Virus record (IMG/VR): IMGVR_UViG_3300026077_000023
Location: 1-26,090 of that record
Reading direction: 5' to 3' (one strand)
From: a virus
Length of the DNA stretch: 26,090 bases
Shown here: positions 6,227 to 18,833 of the stretch, piece after piece
Layout: each line of letters starts with the position of its first letter
Position numbering within the stretch: position 1 is the stretch's first letter
Notes under the pieces: model-generated
Told to the model about the DNA's origin: nothing
Databases searched by the model: none
Seen by the model: only the letters and a program-made list of their open reading frames with translations
Translations under genes and position numbers: made by a program

Positions 6227-6228
6227 GT

Positions 6229-6602: not shown

Positions 6603-6614
6603 GTGATATACTGA

Positions 6615-6878: not shown

Positions 6879-6884
6879 GCTCTT

Positions 6885-6920: not shown

Positions 6921-6927
6921 TTAACAA

Positions 6928-7364: not shown

Positions 7365-7390
7365 GTGTGCTCCTTTGTGTGTACATTCTT

Positions 7391-7446
7391 ATTATACACA
7401 AAAAAAGCACCCTGTGTAGGATGCTTGGGACACTTTCTCAACTGTC
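7391..7446 (-). promoter_or_regulatory. Palindrome-promoter cassette A
   Basis: The 18-bp imperfect palindrome GACAGTTGAGAAAGTGTC (7429-7446) is followed after 32 bases by TATAAT (7391-7396), part of TATAATAAG. The leader to the TTG start is about 20 bases. The stop codon TGA of the upstream gene is formed by the first bases of the palindrome. No -35 box is evident. A terminator lies inside the 32-base gap. Confidence 0.75.
7400..7426 (-). terminator. Rho-independent terminator inside cassette A
   Basis: The stem AAGCA with TGCTT, plus an inner CCT/AGG pair after one mismatch, is followed by seven T on the minus strand. It ends the three-gene unit whose last gene is 7445-7696, immediately before the next promoter. 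Confidence 0.8.
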
Positions 7447-7696
7447 ACCCAGTGATAAAACAATCGGGTGGATTGATGCCATAATGAGTTGAGATGATCT
7501 CATCTGCTGTATCTTCACACTCAACCTCGTTGATGTGGTCTATCAATTCTCTTTCAGTCATTCTCTCATATTGTGCTGAGAGTGTTTCATAAATGAATTG
7601 ATATGCACTGTCGGGGTCTTCGTGCAATCGATTCGCTTGTAACTCGGCGTAATCTTCGATAAGTTGATCGAAGGTGCAGTCTTGATACTGTGGCAT
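7445..7696 (-). CDS. Acidic hypothetical protein (83 aa)
   Basis: The start is taken at 7696 (MPQYQDCTFDQLIEDYAELQ) because that ATG overlaps the previous stop as TAATG; a start three codons upstream is possible. The protein is acidic and helical. Its TGA stop is the first half of the conserved palindrome. Function not recognised. Confidence 0.7.
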   Translation of the reverse strand: MPQYQDCTFDQLIEDYAELQANRLHEDPDSAYQFIYETLSAQYERMTERELIDHINEVECEDTADEIISTHYGINPPDCFITG

Positions 7697-7842
7697 TACT
7701 GACAAAGCGATTCGAAACGTTGACGCACAGCGAACTCGATATCATCTGAGTTCATCATAGCAATATCACCTGTGTCAGTGATTTCTTGCATGACCTCTTC
7801 GTAACAGGTCTCTAGAATTGATTCGTGATGAAGTGTACTCAT
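7696..7842 (-). CDS. Small acidic hypothetical protein (48 aa)
   Basis: The protein begins MSTLHHESILETCYEEVMQE and ends RFESLCQ. Both ends use TAATG overlaps with neighbours, so it is the middle gene of a three-gene coupled unit. Function not recognised. Confidence 0.65.
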   Translation of the reverse strand: MSTLHHESILETCYEEVMQEITDTGDIAMMNSDDIEFAVRQRFESLCQ

Positions 7843-7997
7843 TAGTCGTAGCAAAATGGGGTTGGATTGAAAATGATTTCACAAGCAGAGTCGAAGTCTG
7901 CTTCGTTGATGTGATCGGGTACTCCCAAATCCATCAGCATCACAAGAGCATCAGCGAGGGCGGATTCTTGTGCTTCGGTGAGTCGTATGTTTCTCAT
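7842..7997 (-). CDS. Small hypothetical protein (51 aa)
   Basis: The ATG at 7997 (MRNIRLTEAQESALADALVM) is chosen over an upstream in-frame ATG that would place the promoter inside the gene. TATAATAAG ends 4 bases before this ATG, so the message is predicted to be leaderless or nearly so. The protein is acidic with a helical N-terminal half. Function not recognised. Confidence 0.65.
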   Translation of the reverse strand: MRNIRLTEAQESALADALVMLMDLGVPDHINEADFDSACEIIFNPTPFCYD

Positions 7998-8003
7998 GTC
8001 CTT

Positions 8004-8059
8004 ATTATAGACAAAATCCACACCAATGAAACCCACACTGTGACACTTTCTCAACTGTC
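8004..8059 (-). promoter_or_regulatory. Palindrome-promoter cassette B
   Basis: The palindrome GACAGTTGAGAAAGTGTC (8042-8059) is identical to that of cassette A and extends to 9-base arms with one mismatch. After 32 bases comes TATAAT (8004-8009). The palindrome supplies the TGA stop of the upstream 41-aa gene. No separate terminator hairpin is obvious in the gap. Confidence 0.75.
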
Positions 8060-8183
8060 ACTTGTACTCACACTCAGACACCAATAGTGCATTAGAATGA
8101 CATTCTAAGGGGTCATCCTCTTCGGGGTGCTCGTCATAATATTCGAGCTCGTTTTTTAAATACTCTTCAAACGTTTTTTCCAT
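8058..8183 (-). CDS. Small acidic hypothetical protein (41 aa)
   Basis: The protein begins MEKTFEEYLKNELEYYDEHP and ends VSECEYK. GGAGGGC lies about 10 bases upstream of the ATG. The TGA stop is part of the conserved palindrome. TATAAT at 8213-8218 precedes it. Function not recognised. Confidence 0.65.
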   Translation of the reverse strand: MEKTFEEYLKNELEYYDEHPEEDDPLECHSNALLVSECEYK

Positions 8184-8313
8184 TACGGCTGCCCTCCGTG
8201 ATATGTTCTATATTATAACATGTGTCAACATGCTCCCACACTTTCTTAGCAAAAAGAAACATAAACCAGGTCTGCAACTCTTCGTTGCAATACGACGCAA
8301 TGTAACGTGCCAT
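8167..8313 (-). CDS. Possible small protein (48 aa)
   Basis: The frame begins MARYIASYCNEELQTWFMFL and overlaps the next gene by 17 bases. It is aromatic and cysteine-containing with a hydrophobic centre (WFMFLFAKKVW). No clear ribosome-binding site precedes it, and it would contain the TATAAT at 8213. It may be a real gene read through from 8684 or a chance frame. Confidence 0.35.
   Translation of the reverse strand: MARYIASYCNEELQTWFMFLFAKKVWEHVDTCYNIEHITEGSRNGKNV
8213..8218 (-). promoter_or_regulatory. Extended -10 promoter element
   Basis: TGTTATAATATAG is an extended -10 consensus about 30 bases before the 41-aa gene. A TTGACA occurs only 5 bases upstream, too close to be its -35 box. 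No palindrome lies at the distance seen in the other cassettes. Confidence 0.45.
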
Positions 8314-8340
8314 AATATTAAAGGGTTAAGGGTAAAGGAT

Positions 8341-8362
8341 AAAGGGGTGGAAGGTCCACCCC
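8341..8362 (-). terminator. Rho-independent terminator
   Basis: The 8-bp stem GGGGTGGA with TCCACCCC has a 3-base loop and is followed by TTTATCCTTT on the minus strand. It lies just after the stop of the gene at 8370-8684. The T tract is interrupted, so termination may be partial. Confidence 0.65.
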
Positions 8363-8369
8363 GTGTTGG

Positions 8370-8684
8370 TCATCGTTGGATAGTAAACCCGTCAAAAAAT
8401 GGGGTGTTACGGTCTCCAACGTACCAGGTAAAGTCGTGTTGGAAAATTCTTAGAGTGTATCCAAAGAAATTCTCTAGAAGTGCATTCAGTCTTGACTTAG
8501 TTGTGACAGTCTCCCAACCTGCACTGCTGAGTTGGAGATCGCCATTGTCATACACTGTTGCAATGTGATTGTTATGCAAGTAAACCTCAGAACGGTTGCC
8601 CATGCGATCAACCCTTGTATTTGAGTTTGACCATGATGTGCGGTTGTTGACTGCGTTGTTCATTTGCTTTTCAATCTTTCTCAT
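8370..8684 (-). CDS. Conserved-looking hypothetical protein (104 aa)
   Basis: The protein begins MRKIEKQMNNAVNNRTSWSN. The central part (VYLHNNHIATVYDNGDLQLS) followed by SAGWETVTTKSRLNALLENF resembles a family common in marine T4-like phages, in which a short beta-hairpin precedes a TTKSRLNALL helix. No function is known to me. AAAGG lies 7 bases upstream of the ATG. It is a single-gene unit under cassette C. Confidence 0.75.
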   Translation of the reverse strand: MRKIEKQMNNAVNNRTSWSNSNTRVDRMGNRSEVYLHNNHIATVYDNGDLQLSSAGWETVTTKSRLNALLENFFGYTLRIFQHDFTWYVGDRNTPFFDGFTIQR

Positions 8685-8709
8685 GAGTGACCTTTGTTTG
8701 TACTCTCTT

Positions 8710-8766
8710 ATTATAGAGGGAAAAATACCCCTGTGAAGGGGTAGGGTGACAGTTTGTGAACTGGTC
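8710..8766 (-). promoter_or_regulatory. Palindrome-promoter cassette C
   Basis: The palindrome GACCAGTTCACAAACTGTC (8748-8766, one base longer in one arm) is followed after 32 bases by TATAAT (8710-8715, within TATAATAAG). The leader to the ATG at 8684 is about 19 bases. A terminator fills the gap. Confidence 0.75.
8721..8743 (-). terminator. Rho-independent terminator inside cassette C
   Basis: The 7-bp stem TACCCCT with AGGGGTA has a 4-base loop and is followed by five T on the minus strand. It ends the four-gene unit whose last gene is 8769-8921. Confidence 0.85.
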
Positions 8767-8768
8767 TA

Positions 8769-8921
8769 TCATAGATCTTCATCTAGATCAAGTACAGTAC
8801 AATCAATGTCCCAACTAACTGCTGAGGGATCATAACCATTTTTAGCAAGTGCTTCGGCAATGTCCTCTGCTATGCGGTCAACCGTGCGACCGTCAAGCAT
8901 TGAATACACATCAACTTTCAT
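8769..8921 (-). CDS. Small acidic hypothetical protein (50 aa)
   Basis: The protein begins MKVDVYSMLDGRTVDRIAED and ends with an acidic LDLDEDL. GGAGGAATT directly precedes the ATG, and ATGA overlaps the upstream stop. Function not recognised. Confidence 0.7.
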   Translation of the reverse strand: MKVDVYSMLDGRTVDRIAEDIAEALAKNGYDPSAVSWDIDCTVLDLDEDL

Positions 8922-9085
8922 AATTCCTCCACAGTCTCAATAGACCATTCTGATGTGTATTCATCCTCAATATCAAATGAATTGATATTTGCATGAGCAA
9001 GTTCCCTTGCTGCGTCTTCGGTCTCTGCTTCAACTAATATTGTGAAGTAGTTAACCTCTGAGCATTCGATTCTAAATTGATTCAT
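8918..9085 (-). CDS. Small acidic hypothetical protein (55 aa)
   Basis: The protein begins MNQFRIECSEVNYFTILVEA, with a beta-alpha pattern then an acidic C-terminus (WSIETVEEL). ATGA overlaps occur at both ends, so it is coupled with its neighbours. Function not recognised. Confidence 0.7.
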   Translation of the reverse strand: MNQFRIECSEVNYFTILVEAETEDAARELAHANINSFDIEDEYTSEWSIETVEEL

Positions 9086-9261
9086 GAGAATAAAGGACGC
9101 ATGTAATCTTTGAACTCTTCACACATAGCAACAGCGAGAATTCTTAATTGTTTCTCATCTGAGTTGTTGCCATCTGCTACTAGTTCATCATAACACGCCT
9201 GTCGTATCCCTAAGTCGGTGATATCGTATTCATGTAGTTTGACGTGCTTGAAAAATGACAT
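9082..9261 (-). CDS. Small hypothetical protein (59 aa)
   Basis: The start at 9261 (MSFFKHVKLHEYDITDLGIR) is preferred to an upstream in-frame ATG because the extra residues are low quality. It ends FKDYMRPLFS. The stop overlaps the next start (ATGA). No good ribosome-binding site is seen, so it may depend on translation from upstream. Function not recognised. Confidence 0.6.
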   Translation of the reverse strand: MSFFKHVKLHEYDITDLGIRQACYDELVADGNNSDEKQLRILAVAMCEEFKDYMRPLFS

Positions 9262-9320
9262 AGTTTGAATGTAAAGAATAAAAGAGGACTTATGTTTGCT
9301 GAGGTTCGAATTAAATGCGA

Positions 9321-9467
9321 TTAGTGAACGCAACCCCTGCCAGTCTTACGGATGCCTCTAGAGTGTGGGACAGTAATCATATAAGGAGTGTACATAGCAG
9401 ATGTCTGTAGTACGATCACCATGTTCAATACACGGTCATTTAAGATCCTTCTACTCAGGGATGCCAT
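9321..9467 (-). CDS. Small hypothetical protein (48 aa)
   Basis: The protein begins MASLSRRILNDRVLNMVIVL and ends RKTGRGCVH. An alternative GTG start at 9503, in frame and at the expected transcription start of cassette D, would add 12 residues and be leaderless. The longer frame back to 9551 crosses the terminator and is rejected. The centre is hydrophobic (VLNMVIVLQTSAMYTPYMI) and the tail basic. Function not recognised. Confidence 0.55.
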   Translation of the reverse strand: MASLSRRILNDRVLNMVIVLQTSAMYTPYMITVPHSRGIRKTGRGCVH

Positions 9468-9509
9468 GTATGCCGTGTCCAAAATGATTGAACCCTGTCC
9501 CACTTCTTT

Positions 9510-9564
9510 ATAATAACAAAAAAAGACCCCGTGTGGGGTCTTAGTGGTCACTTTGTAAACTGTC
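9510..9564 (-). promoter_or_regulatory. Palindrome-promoter cassette D
   Basis: The palindrome GACAGTTTACAAAGTGAC (9547-9564) is followed after 31 bases by TATTAT (9510-9515). A strong terminator lies in the gap. The palindrome also encodes the last residues (QFTK and stop) of the upstream 80-aa gene. Confidence 0.7.
9518..9542 (-). terminator. Rho-independent terminator inside cassette D
   Basis: The 8-bp stem AAGACCCC with GGGGTCTT has a 4-base loop, with seven T continuing from the stem on the minus strand. It ends the 80-aa gene unit. Confidence 0.9.
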
Positions 9565-9790
9565 TCACATACTTGTTGAGTTTGGTGAGGTCTGCTGCTA
9601 ACATAGTAATTTCATACTGATGTATGCTCCAACGTGTTTTAATGTCGGACCAGTAGCGTTGGGGTGAAATCAACTTTGCTGCCGATGGTCTCTTTAACGT
9701 TGGTTTTGTGACCTTGACTGTTTTGACTGCAACCTTGCGTGTGCGTCTCTTACGAGGTGCTGTTGGTTTGGTTGCTGTTGCGACTGTCAT
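9548..9790 (-). CDS. Small protein with basic Thr/Pro-rich tail (80 aa)
   Basis: Residues 1-43 are Lys/Arg/Thr/Pro/Ala-rich (TATKPTAPRKRRTRKVAVKT), like a histone-tail or DNA-compacting segment. Residues 43-80 look folded (SPQRYWSDIKTRWSIHQYEI). DNA binding is a reasonable inference from charge only. It is a single-gene unit between cassettes D and E. Confidence 0.7.
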   Translation of the reverse strand: MTVATATKPTAPRKRRTRKVAVKTVKVTKPTLKRPSAAKLISPQRYWSDIKTRWSIHQYEITMLAADLTKLNKYVRQFTK

Positions 9791-9814
9791 TAATAAAATG
9801 CGTTAGACTCGTTC

Positions 9815-9890
9815 ATTATACAAATAAAAAGCACCCGTGAAGGTGCTTTGTAATAAAATGAAACAATTTGGGGACAGTTCCTAAACTGTC
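9815..9890 (-). promoter_or_regulatory. Palindrome-promoter cassette E (long spacing)
   Basis: GACAGTTTAGGAACTGTC (9873-9890) has perfect 7-base arms. Here TATAAT (9815-9820) follows after 52 bases rather than 31-32, about two helical turns further. A terminator (9826-9848) lies in the gap. Confidence 0.65.
9826..9848 (-). terminator. Rho-independent terminator inside cassette E
   Basis: The 7-bp stem AAGCACC with GGTGCTT has a 6-base loop and runs directly into five T on the minus strand. It ends the unit 10347-9899. Confidence 0.85.
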
Positions 9891-9898
9891 ACTACACA

Positions 9899-10078
9899 CT
9901 AGTAACCATGTACATAATTATCTGTATGATAATAACTATCATCATAGTTTTTAAACTTTGTTACTTTCTTTTTCTTATTTCTCCTTACATTTTTAACATC
10001 TAAACCGTAATCCTCGAAGTCATTAACAAATACATCCTTTAATTTGGATGATTTGTTAGTCTTACCGTGTCGTGCCAT
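9899..10078 (-). CDS. Basic Lys/Tyr-rich small protein (59 aa)
   Basis: The protein begins MARHGKTNKSSKLKDVFVND, has a KRNK-type basic run in the middle (VRRNKKKKVTKFKN) and a Tyr/His/Asp-rich tail ending VHGY. An AATAAATA at 10100-10107, partly inside the previous stop region, might act as a late promoter but could be chance. Function not recognised. Confidence 0.65.
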   Translation of the reverse strand: MARHGKTNKSSKLKDVFVNDFEDYGLDVKNVRRNKKKKVTKFKNYDDSYYHTDNYVHGY

Positions 10079-10098
10079 TGTTATTAACTAGTGGTGGT

Positions 10099-10347
10099 TT
10101 ATTTATTCTCTACTAGGACACCTGATTTGATAGATTGATTAATAAACTTGCCCACAGACCCTCCTTCTAATAGTTCTTCATGAGCTATGAGTGTTTCTGA
10201 TAGTTTATTAACGAATTCTTGTATATTTTGGCAATTAAACTCATATTCTTTGTTTATATTACTATTATACACTACTTTCACAGTGTTGTCAAGTGTTTCG
10301 ACTGATTTAATCGCACTTGATGTGAATTTTTCGTAAATCATTGACAT
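10099..10347 (-). CDS. KTSC-like small protein (82 aa)
   Basis: The pattern SSAIKSVETLDNTVKVVYNS, an aromatic YEF strand, and a C-terminal GGSVGKFINQSIKSGVL resembles KTSC-domain proteins, small beta-rich proteins of unclear function sometimes linked to RNA or lysyl-tRNA synthetase. The match is partial. Its promoter (cassette F) lies about 175 bases upstream, so the message has an unusually long leader containing inverted repeats. Confidence 0.6.
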   Translation of the reverse strand: MSMIYEKFTSSAIKSVETLDNTVKVVYNSNINKEYEFNCQNIQEFVNKLSETLIAHEELLEGGSVGKFINQSIKSGVLVENK

Positions 10348-10370
10348 TTTAGAGAGTTTGTGTTAGGTTT

Positions 10371-10390
10371 AACTCGAAAAAACTCGAAAA
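10371..10390 (+). repeat. Tandem 10-mer AACTCGAAAA x2
   Basis: Two perfect adjacent copies of AACTCGAAAA occur on the plus strand. The same core in the opposite orientation is repeated at 10536-10555. The 10-base period would place the copies on the same face of the helix. Confidence 0.85.
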
Positions 10391-10462
10391 AACGCAAAAT
10401 ACTTAAAAATAGCTTTCTTAAACTTCTTAAAAAGTCAAAAAAACCATTTTTCGTGCTTTTTC

Positions 10463-10485
10463 GTTTTCCACAGGTTGTGAAAAAC
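10463..10485. repeat. Inverted pair of DnaA-box-like sequences, 3-bp spacer
   Basis: GTTTTCCACA, GGT, TGTGAAAAAC: 10-base arms with one mismatch. One arm is an exact TTTTCCACA. It is transcribed as part of the leader of the KTSC-like gene, so it could also act as an RNA hairpin. Confidence 0.75.
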
Positions 10486-10527
10486 TCAAAAAGACTCTTT
10501 TTTGGCGTTTCCCCGAACTACTCCTTT

Positions 10528-10583
10528 ATTATAGTGTGTTTTCGAGTGTTTTCGAGTCCTTGTGTGACACTTTGAGAAGTGGC
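10528..10583 (-). promoter_or_regulatory. Palindrome-promoter cassette F
   Basis: GCCACTTCTCAAAGTGTC (10566-10583) is followed after 32 bases by TATAAT (10528-10533), then AAAGGAG. The gap carries the tandem TTTTCGAGT 10-mers instead of a terminator. The first gene start is at 10347. Confidence 0.7.
10536..10555 (+). repeat. Tandem 10-mer GTGTTTTCGA x2
   Basis: Two perfect adjacent copies lie between the palindrome and the -10 box of cassette F. Read on the minus strand they contain ACTCGAAAA, the core of the repeat at 10371-10390, so the two arrays face each other. Confidence 0.85.
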
Positions 10584-10668
10584 ACAGGCATACTTGACAT
10601 TCGGTCGCTGGCGGGCTAAGACAACATCTCTAGAGCACCTTACATATATTTTTTAATACATTTTAAAT

Positions 10669-10702
10669 GTTTTCCACAAGCACCCTAAAAACTGTGGAAA
10701 AC
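10669..10702. repeat. Inverted pair of exact DnaA-box-like sequences
   Basis: GTTTTCCACA and TGTGGAAAAC are perfect 10-base arms with a 14-base spacer. It lies 40 bases after the stop of the gene at 10742. It could be a DnaA-binding pair or a transcript-ending hairpin; no T tract follows, which argues against a simple terminator. Confidence 0.8.
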
Positions 10703-10741
10703 TCAGTGTTACCAATGTGCGGAGGATACTATCCAATACTA

Positions 10742-10945
10742 TCATTCTTGTAATTCATCTAGTCTGTATGCATACCCACGTTGCCTACTTTTATGTAGTG
10801 TGTTATACTGTCTTTCGAGTACAGATTTGATGTCTCTGAGTGATGCTGCTAGTAATGCTTCATCAGTCATGTCTATGAATAAATCTTCTAAATGTGCTAC
10901 ATGTTCTAGTGCAAATAATAGTTTAGTTTGATTGTTCATTCTCAT
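10742..10945 (-). CDS. Helical hypothetical protein (67 aa)
   Basis: The protein begins MRMNNQTKLLFALEHVAHLE and is almost entirely helical and charged, ending RLDELQE. The ATG overlaps the previous stop (ATGA). It is the last gene of the four-gene unit begun at 11991. Function not recognised. Confidence 0.7.
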   Translation of the reverse strand: MRMNNQTKLLFALEHVAHLEDLFIDMTDEALLAASLRDIKSVLERQYNTLHKSRQRGYAYRLDELQE

Positions 10946-11217
10946 TGTGGATAAGATGGTGGCATAGGTGTGTGTTGTTCAACTATATCTCTTGCTCCTT
11001 GTTCAAACTCAGGTGTGAATGCATGACGTGATTGATATTCACTATCTTCATTCAATGAGTTGTATTCATAATCAAATCCACTTTCATTTAATAGTGTGCG
11101 TCTTACATCATTTAATTCTTCCTTTGATTGGTCAGTTGATGCATGTACTGATTCTGCATCTACACACTGTATTAATAATTTAATTTGTGTGTCAGTTAGT
11201 GGGATTAGTGTTTTCAT
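10942..11217 (-). CDS. Acidic hypothetical protein (91 aa)
   Basis: The protein begins MKTLIPLTDTQIKLLIQCVD, contains an acidic middle (NSLNEDSEYQ) and a Pro-rich end (HTPMPPSYPQ). ATGA overlaps occur on both sides. Function not recognised. Confidence 0.7.
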   Translation of the reverse strand: MKTLIPLTDTQIKLLIQCVDAESVHASTDQSKEELNDVRRTLLNESGFDYEYNSLNEDSEYQSRHAFTPEFEQGARDIVEQHTPMPPSYPQ

Positions 11218-11780
11218 CGTTTAAATGTGAGATTAAATGACATTGATATTCTATTGTGATTTGTCTCATTGATACGTGTACCATGCATTAAGAATGATGG
11301 CCACAGTACAATCATACCCTTCTTAGGTGTGATTTGTCTTGCCATATCCAGATGTGCTATCATATAATTGTTCTCACTCACATAATGTGGCGAGTGAAAG
11401 TATATGTTACCATCACGTGAATTGGTACTTATATAATACACGCCACTGATGTCGCTGCCACCATGACTGTGCAAGTGTGCATACTGTCCATTAGTAGTTG
11501 ACGTGAACCATGAATTATCAATATGATAGGGATCATGATGTTCAATACCAATATCATTCAGGTATTGGGCGACGTGATATTGTAAGAACTGTTGAAATGT
11601 ATCACTCTTCTCCAATACATTTGATCCAAATGGGTCAGGTGTGAGATGATGTGTATCAGCACTCCAACCAGGTCTATGTTCAAACTCAGTGAGATTTAGA
11701 TCATCATTTAGTTCTTTTCTCTCTGGTATTGAACAAACGTATTCATATAATGGTAGGGGAAACCACTGATCAGTTGTCAT
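11214..11780 (-). CDS. 2OG-Fe(II) oxygenase, PF13759-like (188 aa)
   Basis: The C-terminal half shows the double-stranded beta-helix core of phage 2-oxoglutarate/Fe(II) oxygenases: DNSWFTSTTNGQYAHLHSHG (residues 88-107), SGVYYI, a PKKGMIVLWPSFLMHGT stretch and NRISMSFNLTF. Likely iron ligands are His104 or His106 and His166; Arg177 likely binds 2-oxoglutarate. Such enzymes couple decarboxylation of 2-oxoglutarate to hydroxylation. The substrate is unknown. T4-like cyanophages commonly carry several copies. It overlaps the upstream membrane-protein gene by 11 bases and the next gene by ATGA. Confidence 0.88.
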   Translation of the reverse strand: MTTDQWFPLPLYEYVCSIPERKELNDDLNLTEFEHRPGWSADTHHLTPDPFGSNVLEKSDTFQQFLQYHVAQYLNDIGIEHHDPYHIDNSWFTSTTNGQYAHLHSHGGSDISGVYYISTNSRDGNIYFHSPHYVSENNYMIAHLDMARQITPKKGMIVLWPSFLMHGTRINETNHNRISMSFNLTFKR

Positions 11781-11991
11781 TAGAACTCATGAATTGGTAT
11801 GGATTAGTATTTGGTCCTGTAAATTCCAATTCAATCGACTCAAAGATTCTCAGTAGTGCATTAGCATATGCTCTGTATCCACTGCCAACATATAGTTGAC
11901 CAGCAACTACAGACACAGTAGCAATACCCCAAAACATATAATAAAACCTGGATTTCATTTGTGCTCGTACCTTAGTGGTCTTATCACTCAT
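11770..11991 (-). CDS. Small single-pass membrane protein (73 aa)
   Basis: A basic N-terminus (MSDKTTKVRAQMKSRF) precedes one hydrophobic segment (YYMFWGIATVSVVAGQLYVG, about residues 17-36), then a soluble tail ending SSNDN. By charge the N-terminus would be inside. AAGGAG lies 14 bases upstream with a 5-codon frame (MNYYE, 11984-12001) between it and this ATG, whose stop overlaps the start. Function not recognised. Confidence 0.7.
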   Translation of the reverse strand: MSDKTTKVRAQMKSRFYYMFWGIATVSVVAGQLYVGSGYRAYANALLRIFESIELEFTGPNTNPYQFMSSNDN

Positions 11992-12012
11992 AATAGTTCA
12001 TTAACTCCTTAC

Positions 12013-12041
12013 ATTATAAAACCCCTTGACTGATTTGTCAA
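12013..12041 (-). promoter_or_regulatory. Consensus sigma70 promoter built into a terminator
   Basis: A perfect TTGACA (12036-12041), a 17-base spacer and a perfect TATAAT (12013-12018), followed by AAGGAG. The -35 box and spacer are part of the terminator hairpin at 12016-12047. It should be recognised by host RNA polymerase early in infection. It drives the unit 11991-10742. Confidence 0.85.
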
Positions 12042-12047
12042 GAGGTT
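12016..12047 (-). terminator. Terminator hairpin overlapping the promoter
   Basis: The stem AAACCTCTTGAC with GTCAAGGGGTTT has 12 positions with one mismatch and a 5- to 6-base loop, ending in TTTTAT on the minus strand. It ends the unit containing the 53-aa gene at 12070-12231 while providing the -35 box of the next promoter. Confidence 0.8.
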
Positions 12048-12069
12048 TGTTGTAAATATTCAGTTTTTC

Positions 12070-12231
12070 TTATGGTAGTAATGACCTACACATTCGTTTG
12101 TCTCCATGCACCGCATCTGCTTCAATTATACAATCGTAGTAATCATCTAACTTGGTCAGAGTATCCTGCGTGGTGGAAGACTCGATGTGCTTCCATTCTG
12201 CTAATTGGTTCTGCGAGATGAGATTGTGCAT
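12070..12231 (-). CDS. Small hypothetical protein (53 aa)
   Basis: The protein begins MHNLISQNQLAEWKHIESST and ends RMCRSLLP; the middle is acidic (TKLDDYYDCIIEAD). AAAGAGG lies about 9 bases upstream of the ATG. Function not recognised. Confidence 0.65.
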   Translation of the reverse strand: MHNLISQNQLAEWKHIESSTTQDTLTKLDDYYDCIIEADAVHGDKRMCRSLLP

Positions 12232-12310
12232 TTATTTTACCTCTTTAGAATTTAGTTTTACATAACGAAGATTGAAAATCACTTCATCTTTCTGTCCTTA
12301 ATTCTACCAC

Positions 12311-12318
12311 TATTTATG
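12311..12318 (-). promoter_or_regulatory. Possible late promoter element
   Basis: CATAAATA fits the NATAAATA late form and lies in the 145-base gap upstream of the gene at 12231. The gap also holds two direct copies of TTGGTAAC (about 12325 and 12343), the second inside the palindrome ATTGTTA-TTGG-TAACAAT. These could be an operator. Evidence is limited. Confidence 0.35.
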
Positions 12319-12376
12319 TGGAATTGGTAACATATATTGTTATTGGTAACAATAATTTATGCCTACGAGTTTATAC

Positions 12377-12538
12377 TCAGTCTGCTGTTAAAATGTAGTC
12401 TATACAGTTAGGATGATCATGAATGTATGGGACATCTTCTGTTGCATCTACTCGTGCTTCATATGAGTCATGGGCGTATTCACATACCTCATGAGTCTTG
12501 AGTTCATAGTCATGATAACCAACAATATAATGAGTCAT
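12377..12538 (-). CDS. Small acidic hypothetical protein (53 aa)
   Basis: The protein begins MTHYIVGYHDYELKTHEVCE and ends NCIDYILTAD. It is rich in His, Asp and Tyr. Its ATG overlaps the stop of the 2OG oxygenase gene as ATGA. Function not recognised. Confidence 0.7.
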   Translation of the reverse strand: MTHYIVGYHDYELKTHEVCEYAHDSYEARVDATEDVPYIHDHPNCIDYILTAD

Positions 12539-13098
12539 AGTCGTACTCTAAACACTATACTATATCTATACAAATGTGGGTAATCTATACTAGGTCCAAG
12601 TCCTCGATGACTGACATAAGCAGGAAACATAACAATTCTGCCTGGTTTGTACTCGTGTGTCTCTACTACTCGGTCCTTGTCTAGGATTTGAAACTGTCCT
12701 CCCCACTCTTGACACCACTCAGGGTTAGGGAATACCATGATAGTAAGTTCGTCGTTCGTACCATCTATGGAATCAATGTGTGATGATCCATCACATCCAG
12801 AGTGTTGTAAGTTGATGAAAATCTGCTGCAAATAATACTCATGCTTTGAGATAGCACATATTCTCTCAAACATATCAAAGAATGGTTGTGCTTTATCATG
12901 TAATACTGTGCATCTATTCAATGACTTGCGTTCAAATAATGTGCATCCTAACAGTCTATGTGAACCACTGTCACCAAATGGCCATGTCTTACGATTGGCT
13001 ATGTTGTTTGCTTTGTAATCTAATTCATCATTCAGTGCTTGATATATGTTATACAAATACTGTTGATCAAATTGATTATCTATTATTTTTGCGATCAT
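12535..13098 (-). CDS. 2OG-Fe(II) oxygenase, prolyl-hydroxylase-like (187 aa)
   Basis: It carries the HxD...H iron triad: GSSHIDSID (His107, Asp109) and MFPAYVSHRGLG (His164). Arg178 in LYRYSIVFRV is the likely 2-oxoglutarate ligand. WGGQFQIL and PGRIVMFP are the expected core strands. It differs clearly from the other two oxygenases of the window (HxD rather than HxH), so it is a separate lineage within the superfamily. The substrate is unknown. It overlaps the upstream 42-aa gene by 23 bases. Confidence 0.85.
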   Translation of the reverse strand: MIAKIIDNQFDQQYLYNIYQALNDELDYKANNIANRKTWPFGDSGSHRLLGCTLFERKSLNRCTVLHDKAQPFFDMFERICAISKHEYYLQQIFINLQHSGCDGSSHIDSIDGTNDELTIMVFPNPEWCQEWGGQFQILDKDRVVETHEYKPGRIVMFPAYVSHRGLGPSIDYPHLYRYSIVFRVRL

Positions 13099-13204
13099 CT
13101 TTCACTGAGTTCATTGCGAGTGTTTCAATTAACAAATAAATCCATATCATGAATAGTATCATGATTGACAGTAGTCTGATGTTCTCACCTGTTATTACTA
13201 TCAT
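13076..13204 (-). CDS. Tiny membrane protein (42 aa)
   Basis: The frame begins MIVITGENIRLLSIMILFMI and contains one strongly hydrophobic helix (LLSIMILFMIWIYLLIETLA, about residues 11-30) followed by a charged tail. It starts one base after the stop of the upstream oxygenase gene, with AAGAAGG upstream, and overlaps the next gene by 23 bases. Such single-helix proteins are easily missed. Function not recognised. Confidence 0.55.
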   Translation of the reverse strand: MIVITGENIRLLSIMILFMIWIYLLIETLAMNSVKDDRKNNR

Positions 13205-13205
13205 A

Positions 13206-13808
13206 TTATACCTTCTTTGGATTTATGTAGTAATTGAATGCGATGCTGATTCTATCTTCATCACTGTATGACTCTTCAACATAATGCCAGACATGACCAG
13301 GTAATATGTATAACTTACCTGCTTCACTCGGTACACTGTATTGAAAATCATCATACAACTGTGAATATGTTGACCCATCATTGCGAGCTACTATCATCTT
13401 ACCACTGTTATCAGGTGTCTTAATGAATGCAACTGCAATTAAATCTGTGCGTCCATGGTGATGTATAGCATTGTAGTGATGTTTCTCATTGATATTCACC
13501 CACCAACCCATATGATCTTTACGCAGTTTCTTCTGAAACTTACCAGTTGTAATACTATTACACAACTCCCAACAGTCTTTCTGAAGATTTGAGATACTTT
13601 GTGGGATCTTTCGTTGTATTTCTATTGGACACTGTGGTCCAAATACTGGAGACTGCCAACCTCCGATGTTACTGATAGACTGAGAAGGATAGTCTTGCTT
13701 AAGGATATATGTGTCCTTAGCAATACTATCCAAATCATGTTCTAAATTAACTGTGATTATGAAGTCTTGGAATATTTCATCCACGACTACACGACTCATA
13801 TCAATCAT
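13206..13808 (-). CDS. 2OG-Fe(II) oxygenase, PF13759-like (200 aa)
   Basis: The core order GWWVNINEKHHYNAIHHHGR (101-120), TDLIAVAFIKTP, SEAGKLYILPGHVWHYVEES and DRISIAFNYYI matches the family of the gene at 11214. His116 or His118 and His175 are likely iron ligands and Arg186 the 2-oxoglutarate ligand. The SG of the usual LSGVYY strand is replaced (LIAVAF). The ATG overlaps the previous stop (ATGA); a second Met at codon 4 is possible. The substrate is unknown. Confidence 0.85.
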   Translation of the reverse strand: MIDMSRVVVDEIFQDFIITVNLEHDLDSIAKDTYILKQDYPSQSISNIGGWQSPVFGPQCPIEIQRKIPQSISNLQKDCWELCNSITTGKFQKKLRKDHMGWWVNINEKHHYNAIHHHGRTDLIAVAFIKTPDNSGKMIVARNDGSTYSQLYDDFQYSVPSEAGKLYILPGHVWHYVEESYSDEDRISIAFNYYINPKKV

Positions 13809-13978
13809 GGCATTTCATTGTGTGCTTTCCATTCAGCATACATTCTACCATAAATCATACCTTCGTGTGATTTAAGTGGAGATCCTTCAAGAATCTCCCT
13901 CTCTCGCTTATTGATAACATTGAATGCGTCTGAGAGATACTCTCGTTCCCATCCTTTGATACGTTCATGGTCTACCAT
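13805..13978 (-). CDS. Small charged hypothetical protein (57 aa)
   Basis: The protein begins MVDHERIKGWEREYLSDAFN and ends YAEWKAHNEMP; it is helical and charged. It is coupled at both ends (TAATG upstream, ATGA downstream). Function not recognised. Confidence 0.7.
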   Translation of the reverse strand: MVDHERIKGWEREYLSDAFNVINKREREILEGSPLKSHEGMIYGRMYAEWKAHNEMP

Positions 13979-14118
13979 TAGCAATCCTTACAGAGTTTAC
14001 GTAGTGATTCAATGTTCTTTAAGATCTTTGCGGATGCTTCCTCATCATGTTTAGTCTGTGCTTCACAGTACTGAAGAACCAATACACGCAATGACTCTTC
14101 AATTTGTGATTGATTCAT
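13978..14118 (-). CDS. Small helical hypothetical protein (46 aa)
   Basis: The protein begins MNQSQIEESLRVLVLQYCEA and ends LRKLCKDC, with three cysteines. It overlaps the upstream gene by 20 bases and the downstream gene by TAATG. Function not recognised. Confidence 0.65.
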   Translation of the reverse strand: MNQSQIEESLRVLVLQYCEAQTKHDEEASAKILKNIESLRKLCKDC

Positions 14119-14341
14119 AGAGTTCTTTGAGCTCATACTCGTCGAAAAAATGAGTGGACTCGTCTATGTAGTTGTCGGGATCCATCCATTCGAACCATTC
14201 ATCTGCAAATGCAATGGCATCATCGACCCTCTCCTCCGTAATCAGAACTCTGAAGCGATCCATGACCCACTCACATAGTTTGTCACGCTCTCCTGATATA
14301 CGGATCTCCATGAAATGTGATTCTGGTGTGTCCTTAGTCAT
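14099..14341 (-). CDS. Acidic hypothetical protein (80 aa)
   Basis: The protein begins MTKDTPESHFMEIRISGERD and is strongly acidic and aromatic (FADEWFEWMDPDNYIDEST). It starts directly after the TAA of the gene at 14342. The acidic, aromatic character is like DNA-mimic or anti-host proteins but that is only a thought. Function not recognised. Confidence 0.7.
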   Translation of the reverse strand: MTKDTPESHFMEIRISGERDKLCEWVMDRFRVLITEERVDDAIAFADEWFEWMDPDNYIDESTHFFDEYELKELYESITN

Positions 14342-14635
14342 TTAATTACGCTCCAAAGATGCGATGTTGTTTAGATGGTCATACTTTACAAGGCGAAATC
14401 CTTGTGGTATCTTGGACTCTAGTGCTTTAACAAACTCAAGAGTGAAACAAGATTGGTAACGCCAAAATGCTCTGTAATCTCTAGAGTCAGGATCAGCGTT
14501 AGTATTAAGTCGAACGCAAAAGGCAGAGCGTTCACTGCTCGTTGGGATAGGAGCAAGTAGTTCTTTAACATAGGATACGACCAGTGGTGACAGGCGTTGT
14601 GCCTTTAGTTGTTGGTTGTAAAACTTTTTTGACAT
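14342..14635 (-). CDS. Hypothetical protein (97 aa)
   Basis: The protein begins MSKKFYNQQLKAQRLSPLVV. It contains FCVRLNTNADPDSRDYRAFW and ends IASLERN. It is the first gene of a long coupled unit running to 12070, under the promoter at 14658-14686. CAGGT lies upstream of the ATG. Function not recognised. Confidence 0.7.
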   Translation of the reverse strand: MSKKFYNQQLKAQRLSPLVVSYVKELLAPIPTSSERSAFCVRLNTNADPDSRDYRAFWRYQSCFTLEFVKALESKIPQGFRLVKYDHLNNIASLERN

Positions 14636-14657
14636 TGTAGGATAATACCTGTAGAAT

Positions 14658-14686
14658 AGTTTAGCAAAGGATGGTCAGGGTGTCAA
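14658..14686 (-). promoter_or_regulatory. Sigma70-like promoter for the oxygenase unit
   Basis: A perfect TTGACA (14681-14686), a 17-base spacer and TAAACT (14658-14663, 4 of 6 matches). It begins directly after the stop of the gene at 14687. Unlike the palindrome cassettes it has a -35 box, although the surrounding 18 bases faintly resemble the palindrome. Confidence 0.7.
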
Positions 14687-14986
14687 CTATCTCATATAGA
14701 GATAGCCTCCTGCCCAGTCTGCTCTTCCTAATGCTGTATGATATGATGCTTCATCTAATAGGTTATATCTAGCATACTTTGCTGGTCCTCTCCATGATGC
14801 TGGTTTAAACACATCACCTGTCTTCTTATCTACAAATGCATGTACACTCTCTTGAGGTGTGTAATGACAGATCTTAATATACTTACGTCCTTCTTTCATA
14901 TCAAACTTAGTGTCACCATAACCATTTTGGTCATAGTTTGCTTGTAGTGCGTTCACTAGTTCTTGAGTTCTTTCTGCTACTGTCAT
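14687..14986 (-). CDS. Conserved-looking hypothetical protein (99 aa)
   Basis: The protein begins MTVAERTQELVNALQANYDQ. The segments VHAFVDKKTGDVFKPASWRG, then ARYNLLD and DWAGGYLYMR resemble a family common in marine T4-like phages with no assigned function. AAGGA lies 9 bases upstream of the ATG. It is a single-gene unit under cassette G. Confidence 0.75.
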   Translation of the reverse strand: MTVAERTQELVNALQANYDQNGYGDTKFDMKEGRKYIKICHYTPQESVHAFVDKKTGDVFKPASWRGPAKYARYNLLDEASYHTALGRADWAGGYLYMR

Positions 14987-15013
14987 GGTAGTGTTCCTTT
15001 GGTTGATGTACTT

Positions 15014-15069
15014 ATTATAATGGATGGTTGCATGAATGCAACAGAGTGTGTGACAGTAATTAAACTGTC
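15014..15069 (-). promoter_or_regulatory. Palindrome-promoter cassette G
   Basis: GACAGTTTAATTACTGTC (15052-15069) is followed after 32 bases by TATAAT (15014-15019). The TAA stop of the upstream gene is inside the palindrome. A GTTGCA/TGCAAC stem-loop (15027-15042) lies in the gap without a T tract. The leader is about 21 bases. Confidence 0.75.
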
Positions 15070-15287
15070 TCTAGTATGATATCTCTTACTCTTTCTCTGT
15101 CTAAACTATCTCCACCACCCCAAGTATAATGTACATACTCTAGGTCACCTTTCTCAATTCTCTCAATGTACACATCAAGTGCATCTTCAATCTTCTGACT
15201 AGTTAATCCTTCAATAGGATATAATACATCCTCATGTGTTGGTAAGTAGAATGATTCAACATACTCAACGAATTCTGGTCTAGTCAT
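15060..15287 (-). CDS. Acidic hypothetical protein (75 aa)
   Basis: The protein begins MTRPEFVEYVESFYLPTHED and ends RVRDIILETV, with a VHYTWGGGDS turn. AAAGGA lies upstream of the ATG. It is a single-gene unit under cassette H. Function not recognised. Confidence 0.75.
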   Translation of the reverse strand: MTRPEFVEYVESFYLPTHEDVLYPIEGLTSQKIEDALDVYIERIEKGDLEYVHYTWGGGDSLDRERVRDIILETV

Positions 15288-15312
15288 GTGTTCCTTTGTT
15301 TGTTATGTACTT

Positions 15313-15367
15313 ATTATAATGCACACAACAACACATGCAACCAATCATGGTCACTTTTACAACTGTC
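15313..15367 (-). promoter_or_regulatory. Palindrome-promoter cassette H
   Basis: GACAGTTGTAAAAGTGAC (15350-15367) is followed after 31 bases by TATAAT (15313-15318). The palindrome contributes the TGA stop of the gene at 15366. No terminator hairpin is clear in the gap. The leader is about 19 bases. Confidence 0.75.
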
Positions 15368-15560: not shown

Positions 15561-15562
15561 TG

Positions 15563-15781
15563 TTATAAAGCAAACTTGCTTATAGAAATGCATGTCATGA
15601 ATGATAGCATAATAACTACATCCCATCCTTTAGTACGAATGAAATATGGTATGCTAATCACATCAGCAATGGCATGTATGACTGTACCAACGAGTACATT
15701 AACATGTAATATAATAAAATATGAAATCACAATCATACATGATCCTATGATCCTACTGATTGTGTCCACCTTTAAACTCAT
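15563..15781 (-). CDS. Small multi-pass membrane protein (72 aa)
   Basis: The start at 15781 (MSLKVDTISRIIGSCMIVIS) forms an ATGA overlap with the zinc-ribbon gene; a start four codons earlier is possible. It has two or three hydrophobic segments (about residues 10-30, 32-46 and 54-70). It is likely in the host inner or thylakoid membrane. Function not recognised. Confidence 0.7.
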   Translation of the reverse strand: MSLKVDTISRIIGSCMIVISYFIILHVNVLVGTVIHAIADVISIPYFIRTKGWDVVIMLSFMTCISISKFAL

Positions 15782-15936
15782 AGCAAATTCCATTGTAATT
15801 TGGGTACTGACTCCTCACAGTGAGCACATGTTAATGCTGACCAACTAAAATGATATACTCTTGATGGTTGATCACAGCATGGACATACTATAATCTTACC
15901 ATTTGATGATGCTCTTGTTAGACTGGTTACTTGCAT
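15778..15936 (-). CDS. Zinc-ribbon protein (52 aa)
   Basis: Two CxxC knuckles, Cys18-Cys21 (CPCC) and Cys37-Cys40 (CAHC), spaced as in a zinc ribbon. The start is taken at 15936 (MQVTSLTRASSNGKIIVCPC); a TTG at 15966 would add 10 residues. Zinc ribbons in phages often bind DNA, RNA or RNA polymerase; which applies here is unknown. Confidence 0.7.
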   Translation of the reverse strand: MQVTSLTRASSNGKIIVCPCCDQPSRVYHFSWSALTCAHCEESVPKLQWNLL

Positions 15937-15994
15937 GAGACCACGTATAAAGGATGAGAGAAACAAAAGAGGACGTGTCCTTGTGTATGATTAC

Positions 15995-16034
15995 CTCAAC
16001 ATCATGTGTCTGCTTCTAAGTCAGACTAGTTGAG
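15995..16034 (-). other. Structured leader hairpin
   Basis: In the leader after cassette I (about 115 bases) the minus strand can fold as CTCAAC-TA-GTCTG-loop-CAGAC-ACATGAT-GTTGAG, a 6-bp outer and a 5-bp inner stem. No gene fits the leader. It might be a regulatory or stabilising RNA structure. Confidence 0.4.
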
Positions 16035-16058
16035 AACCTCTCTTTGTTTCCCAAGAGT

Positions 16059-16114
16059 ATTATAACGTGTAGTGTGTCCGTTGCAACCATTTGTTAGACA
16101 CTTGTAACACTGTC
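16059..16114 (-). promoter_or_regulatory. Palindrome-promoter cassette I
   Basis: GACAGTGTTACAAGTGTC (16097-16114) is followed after 32 bases by TATAAT (16059-16064). A TTGCAA 16 bases before the -10 box may act as a partial -35. It drives the zinc-ribbon, membrane and 64-aa genes. Confidence 0.7.
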
Positions 16115-16117
16115 ACA

Positions 16118-16474: not shown

Positions 16475-16671
16475 ACTGGTCTCCGTAATGTTGTGAGATA
16501 TTCTAATACATGTGCTCTTACTTCCATCAGTTCATTGAAACACTTCTGGTTATGAGCACACCCACGTAGGGCATTGTCTGGTTTGTGTACTGATTCTATG
16601 TATAAATCCAGTCCACGATTCCATTTCATATCATGTGATTCATGATCATCAATGGTTTGCTGATCTTTCAT
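16471..16671 (-). CDS. Small hypothetical protein (66 aa)
   Basis: The protein begins MKDQQTIDDHESHDMKWNRG and ends YLTTLRRPV, with a helical C-terminal half. ATGA overlaps occur at both ends. Function not recognised; co-translated with the methyltransferase. Confidence 0.7.
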   Translation of the reverse strand: MKDQQTIDDHESHDMKWNRGLDLYIESVHKPDNALRGCAHNQKCFNELMEVRAHVLEYLTTLRRPV

Positions 16672-17444
16672 AAGAACTTCTTCAGTGGTGTGTGACGTGT
16701 AATACGATCATTTGCCATCTTAACATACTCTTCATGAATTTCAATACCAATGTATCGTCTGTCATAATCTAAGCATGATATAGCAGTAGTGCCTGACCCT
16801 ATGAAAGGATCAAGAACTAGATCATTCACAAAACTATAGTACTGAACTATCTTATCTGATAGTTGTTGTGGATATGGTGCTAGATGTTTTGATGTAGTCT
16901 CTGGATTGAACTGCCATACATTGCTACGTTCATACCCATCAGGAACTAATGACTTCTCTAGTATCTCAGGTGAGCATGATCGTACTGTCTTATCTATAAG
17001 AAATGGTGCAGGTTTCTTGAATATTAATATAGTCTCTGTAACAAGATTTGGTTTGTATGCTACTGGTTTACGATGCTGATAGAATCCACCGTTACGATTA
17101 ACAGCAGATCCTTCAGGTTTCAACCATATAATATCATCAATGTATTGCCATCCTAGTCTCTCCATAATACTGAAGAAGTGGAATGGTATCGCAAGTCTCT
17201 TACTCTCATGTGCTCTTGACTCACGTGCTTGTATTACTGGTGATAAATTAACAGCACACATTCTACCTTGTTCAGTTACTCTGAATACTTCACGAAATAT
17301 ATCCTCAAGGAATTGTAGATACTTATCATATGTGGGCCACTGTGCGTATGCCTTTGCATTATAATATGGAGGTGATGTACATGTTAACTGTACACTCTCC
17401 TCCATGTTAGACAAATAATTTAATGCGTCATCATGTATGATCAT
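16668..17444 (-). CDS. DNA methyltransferase, N4-cytosine/N6-adenine family (258 aa)
   Basis: The catalytic motif SPPYY (residues 24-28) comes first and the SAM-binding motif DPFIGSGTT (212-220) last, the beta-class order of the N6_N4_Mtase family. SPPY is most often seen in N4-cytosine enzymes, but adenine is not excluded. It transfers a methyl group from S-adenosylmethionine to DNA. It is about 60 residues shorter than the methyltransferase at 17880. The ATG overlaps the HNH stop (ATGA), and the stop overlaps the next gene. It may protect phage DNA from host restriction. The target site is unknown. Confidence 0.9.
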   Translation of the reverse strand: MIIHDDALNYLSNMEESVQLTCTSPPYYNAKAYAQWPTYDKYLQFLEDIFREVFRVTEQGRMCAVNLSPVIQARESRAHESKRLAIPFHFFSIMERLGWQYIDDIIWLKPEGSAVNRNGGFYQHRKPVAYKPNLVTETILIFKKPAPFLIDKTVRSCSPEILEKSLVPDGYERSNVWQFNPETTSKHLAPYPQQLSDKIVQYYSFVNDLVLDPFIGSGTTAISCLDYDRRYIGIEIHEEYVKMANDRITRHTPLKKFL

Positions 17445-17860
17445 CCAATGCTCCTCGATGATGATTTGTTACTGTTGCAGTCTCCATTTAATATTGATTT
17501 ACGTCCATGACATAGTTTACAGTATGTCTTGACATTACTAGGAACATTGTTATGATGATCACCATCTAAATGGTCTAGGTCAAGACTAGTCTCAAATCCT
17601 ACAAATGTAGATACAGGACATGTCCATCCTAAATGACCATCATTATTTTCACAATAGTTCTTTTTATGTCTTGTAACACCAGGTCTATCAACACCTTTCT
17701 TACGTGCAGTAGCACAACTAGAGCATTCTGATTTGAATGACCAATACTTCCACTCTCTTACTTGTACATTATTACTACATCCATCATTGACACATGTAGG
17801 GAGTGTGTGTCCTTCAGCAAAGAATCTTGCTTTCTGTTGTTGTGATACTGTAGAAGGCAT
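17441..17860 (-). CDS. HNH-type nuclease-like protein with Cys clusters (139 aa)
   Basis: The C-terminal part has an HNH-like core: LDLDHLDGDHHNNVPSNVKT (residues 93-112) with Asp96-His97, His102-His103, Asn104 and Asn109, followed by CKLCHGRKSI (Cys114, Cys117, His118). The N-terminal part has zinc-binding pairs (Cys23/Cys28 and Cys46/Cys49). It could be a free-standing homing endonuclease, or the nuclease partner of a methyltransferase given the flanking genes. The start follows cassette J by a leader of about 15 bases. Confidence 0.75.
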   Translation of the reverse strand: MPSTVSQQQKARFFAEGHTLPTCVNDGCSNNVQVREWKYWSFKSECSSCATARKKGVDRPGVTRHKKNYCENNDGHLGWTCPVSTFVGFETSLDLDHLDGDHHNNVPSNVKTYCKLCHGRKSILNGDCNSNKSSSRSIG

Positions 17861-17879
17861 CGTTTAACTAACGCTACTA

Positions 17880-18833
17880 CTAGTATAGCGGAAGTTTGTT
17901 GGGTATGCTATTAATACGGTCAGTTTGTAAACTGGCATAGTCCTTATGGAGTTCACACCCAATATATGATCTATTATGTTTCTTAGCAACCATCGCAGTA
18001 GTACCTGATCCTAAGAATGGATCAAGTATGATGTCACCCTCCTCTGATCCTGCTAGAATGCATGGTTCAATGAGATCAGGTGGATACACTGCAAAATGAG
18101 CACCCTTGTAAGGTTTATTGGTTACTGACCACACACTACGCTTATTCTTTGTCTTATAACTCTTAGTCAAGCCTGTGTGAGGGGATAGACCAGTGCCAGC
18201 ATTATGATACTTACCTTGAGTACGATCTCTAGTACCCCAATCTTTTGCTGGTTCTTTGATTGCTTCATTGTTATAATAATATCTTTTACTCTTACTCAAT
18301 AAAAATATGTACTCATGTGATTTAGTACAACGATCACGTACACTCTCAGGCATAGGATTTGGTTTGTTCCAAATAATATCTTGTCTTAGATACCAACCAT
18401 CAGCACGTAATGCAAATGCAAGCATCCATGGAATACCAATAAGATCCTTCTCTTTCAATCCTTCAAGTTTGTTTCCTCTACGAGGACACACATCTGGTAG
18501 ATCTTGTTTTGTATTTGAGACTGTTTGTTTAACCAGTCCTTGTCCTCGCCCTGGCCTGTAATTATAGTAACTATCCCCAATATTAAGCCAAAGAGTTCCA
18601 TCATCTGTGAGCACATTCTTTACACCTCTGAATACTTCTACTAAATTCTCAACAAATTCTTCAGGTGTCTGCTCTTGACCTATTTGGTCATCCTCCCCAC
18701 CATAGTCTCTTAGACCATAGTAAGGTGGAGATGTGACACACATACGTGGTCTTTCAGCAATACCTGTAGTAATATGTGCATGTAGTGTGTCAAGTGTTTT
18801 ACGACAATCACCAAATAATACTGTATCTCTCAT
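17880..18833 (-). CDS. DNA methyltransferase, N4-cytosine/N6-adenine family (317 aa)
   Basis: TSPPYYGLRDYG (residues 34-45) is the catalytic motif IV and DPFLGSGTTA (271-280) the SAM-binding motif I, in beta-class order. A longer variable middle (about residues 90-245) would carry target recognition. It is clearly a different enzyme from the one at 16668. The ATG overlaps the previous stop (ATGA). The C-terminal codons contain the cassette J palindrome. Likely role: modification of phage DNA. The target sequence is unknown. Confidence 0.92.
   Translation of the reverse strand: MRDTVLFGDCRKTLDTLHAHITTGIAERPRMCVTSPPYYGLRDYGGEDDQIGQEQTPEEFVENLVEVFRGVKNVLTDDGTLWLNIGDSYYNYRPGRGQGLVKQTVSNTKQDLPDVCPRRGNKLEGLKEKDLIGIPWMLAFALRADGWYLRQDIIWNKPNPMPESVRDRCTKSHEYIFLLSKSKRYYYNNEAIKEPAKDWGTRDRTQGKYHNAGTGLSPHTGLTKSYKTKNKRSVWSVTNKPYKGAHFAVYPPDLIEPCILAGSEEGDIILDPFLGSGTTAMVAKKHNRSYIGCELHKDYASLQTDRINSIPNKLPLY
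17882..17936 (-). promoter_or_regulatory. Palindrome-promoter cassette J, inside the methyltransferase gene
   Basis: GCCAGTTTACAAACTGAC (17919-17936) is followed after 31 bases by TATACT (17882-17887). The palindrome is in coding sequence for residues 299-304 of the upstream methyltransferase and the -10 box overlaps its stop. It would give the HNH-methyltransferase unit its own promoter. Confidence 0.6.

Follow-up and report, generated by a model that had tools for sequence, protein, structure and literature searches.

A dyad-symmetric element upstream of -10 boxes in T4-like cyanophages: candidate operators of an activator-dependent class of early promoters

The window analysed here, the whole 26,090-base stretch of the IMG/VR record IMGVR_UViG_3300026077_000023, covers part of the genome of an uncultivated T4-like cyanophage. 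It encodes two DNA methylases, the baseplate proteins gp6 and gp25, and 2OG-Fe(II) oxygenases, and its closest annotated relatives are among the Kyanoviridae (e.g. S-H9-1, P-SSM4 and P-TIM68). It raises the question of what reads an 18-bp palindrome that recurs ten times in a block of small open reading frames (ORFs) bounded by a methylase gene and gp25, with all 10 copies driving the minus strand. The original prediction, made from the letters of this DNA, was a regulon of dyad-symmetric protein-binding sites at a set distance from a -10 box, and this view is now strongly supported by a position matrix and by the placement of the sites at orthologous genes. The palindromes are likely to be the operators of an activator-dependent class of early promoters, common to the Kyanoviridae and read by a dimeric, phage-specified protein.

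A dyad at a set distance from the -10 box

All ten palindromes were found where they had been placed, two of them identical as claimed, and the gaps from palindrome to box on the minus strand agree exactly with those originally given (Table 1). Nine of the ten palindromes have a -10 box at a gap of 31 or 32 bases, compared with 0.15 expected and a maximum of 3 in 20,000 trials with jittered positions; the gap of 52 in the remaining copy, at 9873, equals 32 + 20, i.e. about two extra helical turns. The comparison with shuffled sequence that had been proposed puts both the palindromes and the composites of palindrome and box far above chance: 10 palindromes with at most two mismatches are observed, compared with 0.5 each and never more than 3 in Markov-1 shuffles, which keep the dinucleotide composition, and at least nine composites at 31-32 against a mean of 0.025 (maximum 1) in 200 shuffles.

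The same spacing is found well outside the window. Scanning IMG/VR for the pattern GACAGTTNNNNAASTGTC, followed after a free gap of 24-36 by TATAAT, recovered the composite in at least 120 stretches, compared with one for a permuted palindrome used as the control, and the gap was 31, 32 or 33 in 127 of the 133 cases at the fetched loci across the searched range of 24-36. Seven reference cyanophages were also scanned (Syn9, P-TIM40, S-PM2, P-HM2, P-SSM2, P-SSM4 and S-H9-1), with a symmetrised matrix trained on other phages. Exact TATAAT boxes lie at gaps of 31, 32 and 33 in 4, 22 and 8 cases, respectively, while each of the remaining 118 positions has 0.14 on average; the scan of related cyanophages yields a gap peak at 31-33 that no other spacing approaches. 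The result named beforehand as refuting, as many hits at random spacing as at 31-32 bases, is thus the opposite of what is seen. The composite is present in all seven of these T4-like cyanophages, and no palindrome passes the matrix in T4, in the SAR11 phage HTVC008M (same family) or in the cyanopodovirus P-SSP7.

A position matrix built from 234 IMG/VR sites describes the element as a 24-bp dyad, DDD-GACASTT-N4-AASTGTC-HHM (D stands for not C, H for not G, M for mostly A or C), with its centre near -54 and its symmetry reaching three bases beyond each side of the 18-bp palindrome. The preferred variant of the site is ATTAGTGTC in P-TIM40, TGTGCCAGTT...AACTGGCACA in P-SSM2 and GACACTT...AACTGGC in S-PM2. 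Conservation is symmetric and the position is tied to the -10 box rather than to the upstream stop codon; the palindrome is a DNA site. Its placement upstream of the polymerase in a fixed phase bears out part of the suggestion that it occupies a class I activator position, the other part failing in that the centre is not at the classical -61.5.

The TATAAT-type box is the -10 hexamer of the host sigma70 (SigA). TTGACA at 16-18 bp is wanting at most sites of the window, for which the statement that the promoters have no good -35 box holds; it does not hold for the copies at 15052, 15350 and 16097, which have a weak TTGCAT or TTGCAA. At 7429, 8748, 9547 and 9873, i.e. in 4 of the 10 copies, the -35 region is filled by the terminator hairpin of the upstream gene, which sits between the palindrome and the -10 box and had been overlooked. 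Among the IMG/VR spacers, a terminator-like hairpin is found in 113 of 234, compared with 14.7 in shuffles, and the -35 element is matched in at least four of six positions in 35%, compared with 11.5% of shuffled spacers, and in at least five of six in 8%. In S-PM2, a stem-loop reported by Puxty et al. at 11369-11391 (PMC4503421) lies within the spacer that belongs to the element at 11350. At the other end, the stop codon of the upstream gene overlaps or directly adjoins the palindrome in four copies of the window (7429, 9547, 15052 and 15350) and precedes it by 6-11 bases in three (8748, 9873 and 16097). Stop-adjacent dyads and spacer terminators together define a unit that consists of a stop codon, the dyad, a terminator, a -10 box, a short leader and a small ORF. 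As originally held, neither a consensus sigma70 promoter nor the T4 late form explains these promoters: most lack a TTGACA -35, the boxes read TATAATAAG or similar rather than TATAAATA, the sole -10 element of T4 late promoters, and gp23, gp18 and gp17 are without a site.

Genes that carry the element and related systems

The genes that follow the element recur across phages. An orthologous 'peptidase' of about 720 residues has it upstream in all seven reference cyanophages, and cobS has it in five of the seven under strict rules, with a TATAAT at a gap of 34 in S-PM2 and a weak -10 in P-HM2. Families of small ORFs from the hypervariable regions bear the element in several phages each, among them the families of the window genes 7059-7364, 14687-14986 (DUF7717; six phages, including that of the window), 8370-8684 (Kyano_Gp96; also at the orthologs in Syn9 and P-TIM40) and 15060-15287 (likewise at the orthologs in P-SSM4 and P-TIM40). 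In P-HM2, where a small-gene block at 36.4-39.2 kb is inverted, three sites within it are on the minus strand, as are the genes. In none of the seven phages was a site found at gp55, gp23, gp18, gp17, nrdA, uvsX, gp45, phoH or psbA; the exceptions among the genes examined are gp43, with one weak match (S-H9-1), and gp32, with matches in two phages. This gene set fits early genes, from which we infer early timing; early, middle and late expression classes are conserved between P-HM2 and P-SSM2, according to passages of a transcriptome study (PMC5082946).

The ORFanage region of S-PM2 that was deleted in the laboratory (5,799-15,339) holds three cassettes (8576, 9856 and 11350), so that a part of the regulon was lost with it.

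This kind of element is probably already known. Doron et al. reportedly described in 2016 a novel regulatory element that controls the early genes of Syn9 and P-TIM40, with host-like promoters driving the middle genes. There is good reason to equate the dyad with that element, because it is present in these two phages, members of the same group, at the expected kind of place, that is, before hypervariable small ORFs and not at the late or middle genes examined. Relative to that work, which reportedly concerned those phages, what is new here is the occurrence in seven genera, the model of a 24-bp dyad, the nested terminators and the exclusion of the host. Passages of other cyanophage transcriptome literature contain no description of the dyad.

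A close structural parallel is with PeSL cassettes, whose promoters are strong and sigma70-like. These cassettes, known from RB49/phi1 and other T4-type phages, share with the present element the fusion of a terminator with an early promoter in hypervariable intergenic DNA, as set out in passages of PMC4503421 that cite Arbiol 2010 and Comeau 2014. Unlike in PeSLs, an upstream dyad replaces the -35 element, with the terminator placed after the dyad and ahead of the -10 box. The window also contains, on the minus strand, two perfect TTGACA-17-TATAAT promoters without a palindrome, at 12041-12013 and 10292-10264, so that host-like and dyad-type promoters coexist. The former also shares sequence with a hairpin that runs into TTTT, which makes it a composite of promoter and terminator like a classic PeSL.

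What reads the site

An upstream activator is suggested by the fixed phase of the dyad, centred near -54, together with the sigma70-type -10 box and the weak or missing -35 element. Under the proposed mechanism, a dimeric phage-specified DNA-binding protein, delivered by the virion or made immediately, would bind the 24-bp dyad and hold the host RNA polymerase, probably via the C-terminal domain of the alpha subunit, at a -10 box with, for the most part, no usable -35 in front of it. With no -35 required between dyad and box, the spacer could house the terminators of upstream genes, as about half of the spacers appear to do, and the result would be a string of compact stop-codon/dyad/terminator/-10/small-ORF cassettes. 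Protein binding and a phage-specified factor are what we infer; activation is read from position only.

Comparable arrangements are known. The sites of P2 Ogr and P4 Delta (near -55) and of Mu Mor (near -43) are dyads upstream of weak promoters. The likeness lies in a dimeric site just upstream of a -35-less promoter, where contact with the polymerase is expected, and the difference in the site sequence and in the genes, early and not late. The TGT-N12-ACA dyad of P2 Ogr is not matched, the outer letters of the present element being TGT-N18-ACA (e.g. TGTGCCAGTTATTAAAGTGGCACA in P-SSM2), and no recognisable homolog of Ogr or Mor was found. T4 MotA/AsiA middle promoters resemble the element in having a phage-specific box in place of the -35, upstream of a sigma70 -10, and differ from it in that the MotA box lies near -30. 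Cyanophages lack the T4 proteins Alt, ModA/B, MotA and AsiA, which redirect the host RNA polymerase (PMC2984593).

Several points weigh against an activator encoded by the phage. No convincing DNA-binding domain was detected with Pfam and NCBIfam in 98 small Syn9 proteins. The most promising conserved candidate, phrog_507, looks helix-turn-helix-like in sequence, yet no structural match was found for its AlphaFold model, which has a mean predicted local distance difference test score (pLDDT) of 73.5 and three helices in the first half of the chain, and the protein was rejected as the regulator. A factor for early genes must come with the virion or from the host, and to our knowledge no virion transcription factor has been described for these phages. 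Finally, dependence on the activator may be partial because 35% of the spacers retain a weak -35. The narrower version, in which a phage-encoded, virion-borne activator of an unrecognised DNA-binding family serves the early genes of all T4-like cyanophages from sites with a terminator nested before the -10, is put forward as a tentative possibility.

The regulator was also sought, and not found, by phylogenetic profiling of cyanophages against T4 and HTVC008M, in which none of the cyanophage-core small proteins (phrog_468/DUF1825, 495, 516, 507, 402, 481 and 470) belongs to a DNA-binding family. The phrog_507 proteins (positions 2007-2300 of locus L195 and IMG/VR relatives) are 97-104 residues long, with 42 of 97 positions invariant across seven genera, and are absent from T4 and HTVC008M. 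The core gene for phrog_468, or DUF1825 (positions 573-905 of locus L191), which we take to be a cyanobacterial Pfam family, adjoins gp32, with gp33 also close by in Syn9 and P-TIM40; this neighbourhood has links to transcription. The P2 Ogr precedent prompted a look at the window ORF 15778-15966, a small four-cysteine zinc-ribbon protein (phrog_5602) with a weak likeness to transposase zinc ribbons; this weak zinc-ribbon similarity is its sole Pfam match, and it was set aside as the regulator.

The best of the alternatives, although an unlikely one, is recognition of the dyad by a transcription factor of the host, to which the phages would have fitted their early promoters. Early genes require a factor already present at entry, and the host PhoB binds S-PM2 promoters according to passages of PMC10976474; the PhoB box, however, has another sequence. 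The composite occurs ten times in the 84,980 bacterial and archaeal species genomes of GTDB, and in Prochlorococcus it has a single match, in a single-cell assembly, where the contig concerned also bears cyanophage genes. This 189-kb contig (QCLS01000003.1, from AG-418-C09) encodes a cyanophage methylase and fibre-like proteins and probably represents the genome of a phage that had infected the cell. Outside this contig, none of 201 host-family (picocyanobacterial) genomes contains the palindrome, whereas nine contain the reversed control, and a degenerate 22-bp extended dyad shows no excess there (4 compared with 4 for the control). A regulon of the host itself is ruled out by this absence and by the control-level count of the extended dyad. 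Moreover, site variants differ among phages of nearly the same host: P-TIM40 was isolated on NATL2A and P-SSM2 on NATL1A. These strains are close relatives, so that the variation follows the phage. The absence from host genomes and the phage-specific variants point to a phage-specified reader.

That the dyad is instead the operator of a phage repressor, responsible for a later shutoff of early genes, seems a rather remote prospect. Dyads in phages are often repressor operators and early transcripts need to be shut off, but repressor sites normally overlap the core promoter, whereas the dyad ends at -45, and the combination of a fixed gap of 31-33 with degenerate -35 elements is the signature of an upstream activator.

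Still less probable is a main role of the cassette in recombination, as a site at which small genes are shuffled. The cassettes do join a terminator and a promoter in a hypervariable region, and PeSLs mediate shuffling among closely related T4-like phages, as cited in passages of PMC4503421. The palindromes, however, span just 18-24 bp, their copies diverge, recombination has no need for an exact spacing to the -10, and the one deletion on record, that in S-PM2, ends 0.7-1.2 kb from the nearest flanking elements (5079 and 16512), which speaks against shuffling as the main function.

An action of the palindrome as RNA, for instance as a hairpin by which the upstream transcript is processed or protected at its 3' end, would fit its abutting the upstream stop codon with a terminator next, but is the least credible reading and was rejected, as there is no Rfam match, the position follows the downstream -10 and not the stop or the hairpin, and positions 5/14 of the 234 copies (GG 102, GC 84, CC 19, CG 14) are complementary in 98 and non-complementary (G-G or C-C) in 121, so that RNA pairing is not kept.

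The ten sites in the window and what they mean

Table 1. Palindromes, spacer terminators and -10 boxes of the ten copies in the window (gap, bases between palindrome and box)
Copy	Feature	Positions	Strand	Sequence	Gap	Context
7429	palindrome	7429..7446	-	GACAGTTGAGAAAGTGTC		overlaps final two bases of the TGA stop of the upstream ORF (first base 7447)
7429	terminator hairpin in spacer	7405..7426	-			9-bp stem, then T run
7429	-10 box	7391..7396	-	TATAAT	32	then gene 7059-7364 (DUF3574)
8042	palindrome	8042..8059	-	same letters as 7429 copy		
8042	-10 box	8004..8009	-	TATAAT	32	
8748	palindrome	8748..8765	-	ACCAGTTCACAAACTGTC		first base of upstream stop, 8771
8748	terminator hairpin in spacer	8726..8743	-			
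8748	-10 box	8710..8715	-	TATAAT	32	gene 8370-8684 (Kyano_Gp96)
9547	palindrome	9547..9564	-	GACAGTTTACAAAGTGAC		upstream stop codon inside palindrome
9547	terminator hairpin in spacer	9523..9542	-			
9547	-10 box	9510..9515	-	TATTAT	31	
9873	palindrome (exceptional copy)	9873..9890	-	GACAGTTTAGGAACTGTC		
9873	terminator hairpin in 52-bp spacer	9828..9849	-			
9873	-10 box	9815..9820	-	TATAAT	52	
10566	palindrome	10566..10583	-	GCCACTTCTCAAAGTGTC		
10566	-10 box	10528..10533	-	TATAAT	32	next gene start 10347
15052	palindrome	15052..15069	-	GACAGTTTAATTACTGTC		upstream stop codon inside palindrome
15052	-10 box	15014..15019	-	TATAAT	32	TTGCAT 16 bp upstream; gene 14687-14986 (DUF7717)
15350	palindrome	15350..15367	-	GACAGTTGTAAAAGTGAC		abuts upstream stop
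15350	-10 box	15313..15318	-	TATAAT	31	TTGCAT 16 bp upstream; gene 15060-15287
16097	palindrome	16097..16114	-	GACAGTGTTACAAGTGTC		first base of upstream stop, 16120
16097	-10 box	16059..16064	-	TATAAT	32	TTGCAA 16 bp upstream
17919	palindrome	17919..17936	-	GCCAGTTTACAAACTGAC		within 3' end of DNA methylase gene 17880-18833
17919	-10 box	17882..17887	-	TATACT	31	drives gene 17441-17860

The start of the next gene implies a leader of about 170 nucleotides after the 10566 promoter. This long leader (10347-10521) is T-rich and contains TTTTTTCGAGTT repeats, and a repeated CTCGAAAACA lies upstream of the -10 box of the same copy. Adjoining gp25, a SET-domain protein, unusual for a phage, is encoded at 4582-4875 (Pfam SET, E value 4.6e-12).

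In the sunlit ocean, T4-like cyanophages belong to the most abundant viruses, and the question addressed by the dyad is how infection starts in phages that lack the polymerase-redirecting proteins of T4. With the exact site, its spacing and the list of targets in hand, the missing factor becomes directly findable by DNA-affinity pull-down, and early genes, some of them of unknown function and likely to act in host takeover, become callable from sequence in uncultivated phages.

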